From positions 1-10,753 of the forward strand of contig JAFGBW010000088.1 in assembly GCA_016932965.1 (NCBI GenBank): a stretch of 10,753 nucleotides of DNA, given 5' to 3'. A model generated the notes under the pieces. That model was not told the DNA's origin, searched no databases, and saw only the letters and a program-made list of their open reading frames with translations. Numbering within the stretch: the stretch's first letter is position 1; every line of letters starts with the position of its first letter. Positions 143-6,935 of the stretch are shown here, piece by piece. A program made the translations under genes and the position numbers. This DNA comes from Candidatus Auribacterota bacterium (GTDB taxonomy: Bacteria; Auribacterota; JAFGBW01).

Positions 143-281
143 AATCACCACCACGAAGGACACGAAGAGCACGAAGTTTGTCATCATGCCTTAAAGGCAT
201 GATGAATCTCAGATGACAAATTTGAGATCTCAAATTGCAGGCGTTTCGCCTGCTTCCCCCGTGTCCTTCGTGGTGGTGATT
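143..281. repeat. Nested inverted-repeat element, copy 1
   Basis: Bases 143-164 and 260-281 form a perfect 22-bp inverted repeat. The left arm runs on as units of about 9 bp, CCACGAAGGA, CACGAAGAG, CACGAAG. The inside holds a GTCAT-headed hairpin (180-210), an 18-bp palindrome AATTTGAGATCTCAAATT (219-236) and a hairpin GCAGGCG-TTT-CGCCTGC (237-253). No open frame lies inside. It sits just downstream of yraN and could act as a transcript end for that operon, but no T-run supports a classical terminator. It resembles a non-coding MITE or REP-type element. Confidence 0.75.
180..210 (+). repeat. GTCAT-headed REP-like hairpin, copy A
   Basis: GTCAT leads into a 10-bp stem TCATCATGCC (181-190) and GGCATGATGA (196-205) around the loop TTAAA, followed by ATCTC. 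The copy at 5423-5453 has the same stem and tail but the loop CATAA. Related GTCAT-headed hairpins with other stems lie on the - strand at 5331-5357 and 3285-3315. Confidence 0.7.
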
Positions 282-2128: not shown

Positions 2129-2827
2129 TCACTGCTCCTGTTGAATTGCCATTTTTTTTACCGTTTCCTCATACTCCCGCGTTCTTTTTAACGCCTCTTC
2201 CTGACGCCATTTTTTAATTTTCAGATGATCGCCGGAAAGCAGAACATCCGGCACGTTGAGTCCCATGAATTCCCTGGGTCTGGTGTATTGAGGATATTCT
2301 ATTGTTTCTTCGTCTGTTGTTGAAAAACTTTCTTCTTCAAGAGATTGGGCATTGCCCAAGACTCCCGGTATCAGCCTCACCACCGCATCGATCACGACCG
2401 CGGCAGCCAGGGCACCGTTGGTTAAAACGTAATGTCCAATTGAGAGGCATAACGGGTTGCAAAGAAGCCGTATTCTCTCATCTACTCCCTCATAATGCCC
2501 GCAAAGGATCACCAGTTTGTCCTTTTCAGCTAAGGATGCGGCCATACGCTGGTCAAACATCCCACCGGACGGCGTCATCATGATCAGCATGGAATCCTTT
2601 TCTAAAACCGATTGGACGGCCCGGTACGCCACATCAGGCCGCATGACCATGCCAGGGCCCCCTCCGTAGGGAAGTTCATCCACTTTTTTATGTTTATCAA
2701 AAGCGAAATCGCGGATATTCACCACGTTTAAATTCAATAAACCCGATTCCTGCGAACGTTTTAAAATGGACTGGCTGGCAGGCCCAAGAATGATCTCCGG
2801 AAATAAAGTGAGAACGTCAATTTTCAT
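2129..2827 (-). CDS. trmD: tRNA (guanine37-N1)-methyltransferase
   Basis: TrmD methylates N1 of G37 in tRNAs read with CNN codons, using S-adenosylmethionine, and prevents +1 frameshifts. The protein has 232 residues from the ATG at 2827, preceded by GAGG at 5 bases. Knotted SPOUT-fold motifs are clear: PYGGGPGMVM (53-62), GHYEGVDERI (110-119), DAVVRLIPGVLGN (147-159) and PQYTRP (179-184). Glu113 and Arg151 match Glu116 and Arg154 of the E. coli enzyme. Two places differ from the textbook sequence. GDYVLxGGE reads GHYVLTNGA (131-139), and the residue matching catalytic Asp169 reads Glu166 (EEESF). The first looks like a lineage variant; the second deserves a check. The gene lies 24 bases downstream of the rpsP coding region, with no rimM between. 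Confidence 0.96.
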   Translation of the reverse strand: MKIDVLTLFPEIILGPASQSILKRSQESGLLNLNVVNIRDFAFDKHKKVDELPYGGGPGMVMRPDVAYRAVQSVLEKDSMLIMMTPSGGMFDQRMAASLAEKDKLVILCGHYEGVDERIRLLCNPLCLSIGHYVLTNGALAAAVVIDAVVRLIPGVLGNAQSLEEESFSTTDEETIEYPQYTRPREFMGLNVPDVLLSGDHLKIKKWRQEEALKRTREYEETVKKMAIQQEQ

Positions 2828-5357: not shown

Positions 5358-5396
5358 TCATAAGAGTTTGACAGATATGGAATTGAATAAAAGAAA

Positions 5397-5527
5397 ATTT
5401 CACCACGGCGGACATGGAGGAAGTCATCATGCCCATAAGGCATGATGAATCTCAAATTCCAGACATCCGCCTGTTCCCCTTCCCATTCTCAATTCCTTCC
5501 CCCCTCTGTATCCTGCGTGGTGAAAAA
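5397..5527. repeat. Nested inverted-repeat element, copy 2
   Basis: The left arm TTTCACCACGGCGGACATGG starting at 5398 and a right arm ending GCGTGGTGAAA at 5526 form an imperfect inverted repeat. The outer 10 bases TTTCACCACG are identical and about 8 of the next 13 also match. Inside lies GTCAT hairpin copy D. It has the same architecture as copy 1 (143-281) but clearly diverged arms. Confidence 0.6.
5423..5453 (+). repeat. GTCAT-headed REP-like hairpin, copy D
   Basis: The stem (5424-5433 with 5439-5448) and tail are the same as copy A at 180-210. Only the loop differs, CATAA in place of TTAAA. This is the closest repeat pair in the window. Confidence 0.7.
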
Positions 5528-5639
5528 TTATTCTAAATCAATAAAATATTATAAATGATCATGCCACTTTGAGTGGTTGATATATGAGGCTTTGAGCCGG
5601 GAATATTTTCAAGTCTCCACCTCTGGTGGGGGTAACGGA

Positions 5640-5918
5640 CTAAATCAAGACATAAGTATAGACCTGGATATCGCCAATCTGCTGCACGATGACCTGCGGG
5701 ACTTCTTTTTTATTGAATTGATTGTATGAAAAGGCAAAGGGCATGGGTTGTTCTGTATCGATCTGGATTTCAGGAGGGGCGGCCAGTTCAACTGAAGCCA
5801 TGCTTTGTATGGTGACAAAAGTGGTTCCGCCATAATGGATGTCTGGAGGAAGAGAAGCTGAAGCAACGCTCCATGATTGAAACAGGCATACTAAAAGTAC
5901 AGTCAGAACCGTTTTCAT
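5640..5918 (-). CDS. Small secreted protein of unknown function under a c-di-GMP riboswitch
   Basis: A 92-residue protein with no recognised family. Residues 1-21 form a Sec signal peptide: MK, a hydrophobic core TVLTVLLVCLF, then SVASA with a likely cut after Ala21. The mature part of about 71 residues has no cysteine and no further membrane segment. It is rich in short beta-like stretches such as TTFVTIQSMASVEL and VPQVIVQQIGDIQVYTYV. Cys11 is inside the signal core and does not make a good lipobox. GGGAGG lies 6 bases before the ATG at 5918, which supports translation. The leader reads as a cyclic di-GMP-I riboswitch with its own promoter, so expression should follow c-di-GMP level. Export to the periplasm or outside is inference. 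A role in surface attachment or matrix is only a guess from the regulator. No other gene shares this transcript. Confidence 0.8.
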   Translation of the reverse strand: MKTVLTVLLVCLFQSWSVASASLPPDIHYGGTTFVTIQSMASVELAAPPEIQIDTEQPMPFAFSYNQFNKKEVPQVIVQQIGDIQVYTYVLI

Positions 5919-5921
5919 TTT

Positions 5922-5989
5922 GATCCTCCCTTCATATTTTCTTTTCAGGTTGATCCTGAAAATCCCTAAAGGAAGGATCCAGGATCAAC
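5922..5989 (-). promoter_or_regulatory. Expression platform of the riboswitch
   Basis: On the - strand the 3' half of P1 is part of GTTGATCCTG (5980-5989). That segment pairs exactly with CAGGATCAAC (5949-5958), and its TTGATCCT also pairs with AGGATCAA of the ribosome site (5920-5927). The segment between, GATCCTTCC (5971-5979), pairs along its whole length with GGGAGGATC (5922-5930), with one G-U. There is no T-run, so control of translation is more likely than termination. The sequence does not tell whether c-di-GMP turns the gene on or off. Confidence 0.6.
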
Positions 5990-6076
5990 TTCGGTAACCT
6001 GACAACCTTTCTCAACGAGTGAAGGCTCATGGTTTTGCGTCCCGGTGTTTCCACGCGGTTTGCCTTTTCGGTTGAT
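5984..6076 (-). ncRNA. Cyclic di-GMP-I (GEMM-I) riboswitch aptamer
   Basis: On the - strand the leader carries the conserved blocks of the GEMM-I aptamer in order: GGCAAACC, a P2 hairpin closed by a GAAA tetraloop, GGGACGCAAAACC, a P3 arm, and AGGTTACCGAAG. P1 is formed by ATCAAC (6071-6076) with GTTGAT (5984-5989). In P3, ATGAGCCTT pairs with AAGGTTGTCA through TGA/TCA and CCTT/AAGG, where the common form pairs other bases. That looks like compensatory change. P2 has one bulged C. The call rests on remembered consensus and hand folding. The family binds the second messenger cyclic di-GMP, which governs the switch between motile and attached life. Confidence 0.88.
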
Positions 6077-6085
6077 TCTGATGAA

Positions 6086-6114
6086 ACTTTACCTGAAAAT
6101 ATGTAACGTGTCAA
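6086..6114 (-). promoter_or_regulatory. Promoter of the riboswitch transcript
   Basis: On the - strand a perfect TTGACA (6109-6114) is followed by 17 bases and TAAAGT (6086-6091), four of six -10 matches. The start of transcription would fall near 6079, directly before the P1 strand at 6076. That fit between promoter and aptamer supports both calls. Confidence 0.8.
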
Positions 6115-6230: not shown

Positions 6231-6590
6231 GTGCGGGTGATCGGGAAGTCGCTGCAATGATTAGTATTGCAGAGGAAAGTCCGAACTCCATGGAAGAGGA
6301 TGCAGGATAACATCCTGGCTGCTCCGATAACAGGAGACAGACGGAAAGTGCCGCAGAAAATATACCGCCCATTCTTGGGTAAGGGTGAAAAGGCGAGGTA
6401 AGAGCTCACCGCAAAAGGAGTGATCCTTTTGGCAGGGAAAACCCCATCCGGAGCAAGATCAAACAGAAACGCTAAAGTCTTCCACTTTGTTTCGGGTAGA
6501 TCGCTAGAGACTGATGGTGACATCAGCCCCAGAGAAATGACTTCCGCTCCCTTAAAAGAGCACAGAATTCGGCTTACAGATCACCCGCAT
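6231..6590 (+). ncRNA. rnpB: RNase P RNA, bacterial type A
   Basis: This is the catalytic RNA that removes 5' leaders from precursor tRNAs, working with protein RnpA. P1 is formed by GCGGGTGATC (6233-6242) and GATCACCCGC (6579-6588). Universal core blocks follow in order: GAGGAAAGTCCGAACTCC near 6275, GCCGCAGAAAATATACCGCC near 6350, GGCGAGGTAAGAGCTCACCGC near 6392, GGAGCAAGATCAAACAG near 6450, AGAGAAATGACTTCCGC near 6532 and ACAGAATTCGGCTTACAG near 6562. The length of about 360 bases is normal. In the L15 loop, where most type A RNAs have GGU for binding the tRNA CCA end, the sequence reads GGGAAA (6435-6440), so the U appears to be an A. The exact ends are estimates from P1. Open frames over this stretch are not genes. 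Confidence 0.95.
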
Positions 6591-6620
6591 TTTATCACAG
6601 AATCGGGTGGTTATCTTTTT
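6580..6620 (+). terminator. Possible rnpB terminator overlapping P1
   Basis: ATCACCCG (6580-6587) can pair with CGGGTGGT (6604-6611), with one G-U, ahead of TATCTTTTT (6612-6620). The left arm is also the 3' strand of rnpB P1, so the two folds exclude each other. The loop is 16 bases and the T-run is interrupted, which weakens the case. Confidence 0.3.
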
Positions 6621-6798: not shown

Positions 6799-6935
6799 TA
6801 AACCACGAAACACACGAATTACACGAAAGGAAGAGATAAGAATATTGCGACATGTTTATTTGTAGGCAAATAAACATGTCGCAATAATTATAATTTTTTT
6901 TCTTTTTTTCGCGTGCTTAGTGTATTTCGTGGTTA
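6799..6935. repeat. Nested inverted-repeat element, copy 3, with perfect hairpin H5
   Basis: The left arm starts TTAAACCACGAAACACACGA (6799) and the right arm ends TGTATTTCGTGGTTAAG. They pair imperfectly over about 30 bases. Between them, 6843-6862 and 6867-6886 form a perfect 20-bp stem around TAGG (arm core TTGCGACATGTTTATTTG). Outer arms are of the same CACGAA-unit type as copies 1 and 2, but the inside is entirely different. Confidence 0.7.

Follow-up and report, generated by a model that had tools for sequence, protein, structure and literature searches.

The window, by which we mean the whole 10,753-nt stretch of Candidatus Auribacterota DNA analysed here, carries rnhB, rplS, trmD, rpsP, trpS, rnpB, gyrB and gyrA, the last two being named from their sequences. 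Amid these genes lies a single small ORF of 92 aa at positions 5640–5918 (− strand), and the initial annotation was right to describe one small gene in a housekeeping neighbourhood. The ORF shows a coding-like frame bias, is preceded by GGGAGGA at good spacing, and begins with a signal-peptide-like sequence (MKTVLTVLLVCLFQSWSVASA). Judged from its sequence, the protein is predicted to be made and exported. The GC contents of its three codon positions (0.53/0.34/0.45) follow those of the neighbours and, taken with the frame preference, fit a gene with weak bias. The searches revealed no credible relative of the protein in 59 genomes, Pfam, NCBIfam or a named genome collection, nor any paralog encoded in the same genome, which makes it an orphan. 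The sole match in relatives (genome G019, L033; 33% identity, one internal stop) was located in another ORF context and was taken as chance, and the single-sequence AlphaFold model (pLDDT 48.9) was too poor for a fold search.

Apart from the riboswitch described below, Rfam matches in the window were limited to a class A RNase P RNA at 6233–6592 (+), which is divergent from the riboswitch. A palindromic dispersed repeat (core TCATCATGCC...GGCATGATGA) occupies positions 5390–5540, downstream of the 92-aa gene, and has 48 matches in the genome, window positions 180–214 among them. Upstream of gyrB, a perfect 20-bp inverted repeat with a 4-nt loop is located at 6843–6886.

The GEMM-I aptamer and its putative promoter

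The Rfam cmscan search revealed a c-di-GMP-I (GEMM-I, RF01051) match at positions 6074–5990 (− strand), with a score of 66.8 bits (gathering score 35 bits), an E value of 1.2e-11, coverage of model positions 1–87 of 87, and zero non-standard pairs flagged in the alignment. The family assignment of the initial annotation was thereby confirmed, and it is near certain that the aptamer is a genuine, full-length and ordinary GEMM-I. Its core consists, in order, of GGCAAACC, P2 with a GAAA loop, GACGCAAA, P3, and GGUUACCG. The ligand-contact residues of the Vibrio cholerae aptamer Vc2 are G20, A47 and C92 (PMC4744006), and reading of the alignment showed that the corresponding blocks are present here, with the equivalent of position 20 being G at 6064 (−), A47 lying in GACGCAAA, and C92 in GGUUACCG. 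The binding of cGAMP by GEMM-I RNAs was studied with a G20A change (PMC6274999). Both GEMM-I copies of the genome (2/2) carry G at position 20, where the cGAMP-binding GEMM-Ib form has A, so c-di-GMP rather than cGAMP is the ligand that the sequence predicts for the window aptamer. In the genome, 12 GGDEF domains exceed the Pfam cut-off, and all nine high-scoring ones (9/9) carry GHxxGD, the motif of canonical diguanylate cyclases.

In P3, the pairing UGA/UCA stands in place of the Rfam-consensus cgG/Ccg, as had been noticed before, and all seven basal P3 pairs (7/7) are standard. The same place varies in several relatives, such as L012 (GGA/TCT) and L029 (AGA/TCT), showing that this variation is real, yet commonplace. 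The GAAA loop of P2 is retained, and the receptor side of P3 (CCUUCAC...GAGAAAGG) departs from the Rfam-consensus UAA..UAU form, which might make ligand binding weaker.

Upstream of the aptamer, a sigma-70-like promoter, TTGACA-17-TAAAGT, extends from 6114, where TTGACA begins, to 6086, where TAAAGT ends (− strand). It matches the consensus at 10 of 12 positions and is the best among four promoter-like sites in 1.2 kb; shuffled sequences contained 2.4 ± 1.7 promoter-like sites, whatever their quality, a number from which the observed count does not differ significantly by itself. The promoter is plausible, and it would place the transcription start at about 6080–6078, right at the P1 5′ strand. 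The initial annotation had called it a strong promoter of the riboswitch's own; its presence upstream of the aptamer was confirmed, but its strength amounts to a consensus match. Likewise, the span given then (5984–6114) includes the promoter, the aptamer and most of the P1 3′ strand, but the functional unit extends to the start codon at 5918. The reading as a riboswitch was supported, and the expression platform and the likely direction of control, both absent from that annotation, are described below.

Competing folds and the predicted direction of control

In the minimum free energy fold of the full leader (z −3.86), the 5′ strand of P1 (CAG-A-AUCAAC; 6071–6080, −), which is the predicted transcript 5′ end, pairs with the switching strand GUUGAUCCUG (5980–5989, −). 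In this fold, the anti-Shine-Dalgarno strand GAUCCUUCCUUUA (5967–5979, −) pairs with 5934–5922 in a helix of 13 bp including two G-U pairs, and a hairpin UUUUCAGG/CCUGAAAA (5942–5962, −) forms within the sequestered state. The helix covers the Shine-Dalgarno sequence GGGAGGAUC (5922–5930, −), located ahead of the AUG at 5918. In the competing fold, GUUGAUCCUG is no longer the 3′ strand of P1 and instead serves as the 5′ arm of an antisequestrator, pairing with its perfect 10-nt complement CAGGAUCAAC at 5958–5949; the resulting hairpin of 10 + 7 bp (5949–5989, −) breaks P1 and frees the Shine-Dalgarno sequence. Folding thus places the ribosome-binding site in a helix when the RNA adopts the ligand-compatible fold and leaves it accessible in the alternative. 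When the linker 5979–5931 was shuffled with its dinucleotides kept (n = 5000), the 10-nt complement appeared in 15/5000 shuffles, the 13-bp sequestering helix in 41/5000, and both in 0/5000, which implied that the arrangement is unlikely to have arisen by chance. No intrinsic terminator was found in the window leader, and no orthologous leader was found among the 59 relative genomes searched.

The two folds were compared by nearest-neighbour energies, which leave out tertiary contacts and the ligand. For the full leader, the P1/sequestered fold reached −59.9 kcal/mol and the antisequestrator-forced fold −52.1 kcal/mol, with the Shine-Dalgarno core being unpaired at 0 and about 0.8, respectively. 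For a transcript ending at 5948, on the other hand, the antisequestrator was favoured (−42.4 versus −38.1 kcal/mol with P1 forced), and it stayed ahead by 3.0 to 4.3 kcal/mol for transcript ends from 5948 to 5930. The order was reversed only after the Shine-Dalgarno sequence had been transcribed (P1/sequestered −51.7 versus −44.2 kcal/mol at 5924), which is the pattern expected of a kinetic switch. Since equilibrium favours the sequestered state by 7.8 kcal/mol without ligand, such a switch needs kinetic trapping or early ribosome binding.

These results led us to propose, with a probability of roughly 0.68, that the gene for the small, predicted secreted protein is controlled from its 5′ leader by a class I c-di-GMP riboswitch working as a translational OFF switch. 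Transcription would start at about 6080–6078, and the aptamer would fold first. With c-di-GMP bound, P1 (6080–6071 with 5989–5980) would be held closed, leaving 5979–5967 to form its 13 bp with 5934–5922 and thereby block the ribosome. Without ligand, the complement at 5958–5949 would capture the P1 3′ strand before the Shine-Dalgarno sequence is made, and the resulting 17-bp hairpin would consume about half of the anti-Shine-Dalgarno strand, keeping the ribosome-binding site open. The outcome would then be decided by whether the ligand holds P1 while the transcript ends lie between 5948 and 5930, with bound RNA being OFF and unbound RNA being ON. Both this direction and kinetic rather than thermodynamic control are what the secondary-structure energies predict.

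Other GEMM-I RNAs and alternative readings

Elsewhere in the genome, which comprises 3.14 Mb in 300 contigs, a second GEMM-I copy was found on contig C11 (L114) at 2429–2504 (+), scoring 33.3 bits, slightly below the cut-off of 35. Folding showed that its aptamer P2 strand GGUUCCCCUUU can pair with the Shine-Dalgarno sequence AAAGGAGGCAACC, P3 also being broken up. This masking, together with energies of −42.0 for the free fold of the leader versus −37.8 with the aptamer kept, suggests that the second copy would be ON with ligand; its direction is less clear than that of the window copy, and part of its Shine-Dalgarno sequence stays in a weak hairpin in the aptamer-kept fold. The second copy heads a gene run (C11 2584–7028, +) encoding a 260-aa secreted orphan, a weakly PapD-like (chaperone) protein, a 215-aa protein, and a FadL-family outer-membrane protein, with a fliI-like gene nearby on the opposite strand. 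The mature starts of both secreted orphans (92 aa and 260 aa) carry LPPDI; their BLASTP comparison was not significant, so the shared motif is only a lead. A tentative and rather doubtful extension is that the two switches act oppositely on these two sequence-unrelated LPPDI proteins, one OFF through competition for P1 and the other ON because its P2 strand masks the ribosome-binding site without ligand, giving a push-pull change of the cell surface from one signal.

Across the phylum, GEMM-I RNAs are common, scoring over the cut-off in 22 of the 59 relative genomes. Many precede secreted or pilin-like proteins, and many of the leaders use terminators, one group of which overlaps the aptamer 3′ end. 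In one relative (G020:C3 9255–9482; L008/L025), a single gene is preceded by two tandem GEMM-I aptamers separated by 48 nt. Position 20 is A in aptamers of G020 (L119, L121) and G027 (L122, L123, L127); these aptamers are candidate cGAMP (GEMM-Ib) riboswitches. A group of related GGDEF proteins of the phylum carries GHxxGN (L177, L178, L179, L180, L181, L182, L184). Whether A20 aptamers go together with GHxxGN domains was also examined, and the association is imperfect: such domains occur as well in genomes where G20 was the only aptamer type seen.

Among the readings that compete with an OFF switch, the opposite sign deserves most attention: the same aptamer would turn expression ON with c-di-GMP if the real ligand-bound state is unlike the predicted P1/sequestered fold. 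Many GEMM-I RNAs of the phylum have the architecture of ON switches with a terminator using the aptamer 3′ end (such as L004, L009, L011, L015 and L016), and ON is also the direction predicted for the second copy of this genome. In the window leader, however, closure of P1 is compatible with the sequestering helix, whereas P1 is destroyed by the helix that exposes the Shine-Dalgarno sequence. The ON reading is unlikely. Very improbable is that the leader is a decayed, non-regulating relic, with an intact aptamer and a downstream ORF that is not a real gene. The lack of credible relatives of the ORF in the collections searched and its weak codon score (0.03 bits per codon versus 0.27–0.46 for six neighbours) would fit a relic, but the listed rpsP ORF scores about as low (0.05), the codon-position GC tracks the neighbours, the Shine-Dalgarno sequence and its spacing are good, the ORF has a signal-peptide-like start, and the two-state platform is intact. 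We give still less credence to another cyclic dinucleotide, for example 3′,3′-cGAMP, as the ligand: the fold is common to cGAMP-sensing members (PMC9262584, PMC6456294) and A20 occurs in the phylum relatives named above, but the window copy has G at this position, and the published study of how GEMM-I RNAs bind cGAMP employed G20A.

Relation to known GEMM-I switches

A translational OFF switch of this kind has its closest counterpart in Vc2, which is reported to be a GEMM-I OFF switch acting on translation, with P1 stability as the key (PMC9262584), and whose mechanism on its own gene was called unknown at the time of an earlier report (PMC4744006). The window copy shares with Vc2 the full-length RF01051 aptamer, the G20/A47/C92 blocks and the GAAA-capped P2, as well as control via P1 stability and translation, the latter being predicted here from folding. 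It differs from RF01051 and Vc2 in the divergent tetraloop-receptor side of P3, in its target, an orphan 92-aa protein predicted to be secreted, and in a two-state platform read from the sequence. Clostridioides difficile Cd1 is a transcriptional OFF switch, and the Geobacter metallireducens pilM RNA is a transcriptional ON switch responding to cGAMP (PMC9262584). The aptamer fold, the competing downstream strands and the cotranscriptional choice, predicted for the window copy, are alike in these RNAs and the window copy, but the latter has no intrinsic terminator and would act through the ribosome-binding site. In V. cholerae, Vc1 precedes gbpA and raises expression (PMC4744006); like it, the window copy would control a secreted surface protein, but is predicted to lower expression.

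As a sensor, the aptamer belongs to a well-known type and adds little; the novelty lies in the target protein and in the coexistence with a second switch that probably acts in the opposite direction. The translational platform of the window copy is unusually legible, and offers a compact, testable translational example in a class for which several of the well-described platforms are terminators. Moreover, it points to c-di-GMP control of uncharacterised secreted proteins in a poorly known phylum.
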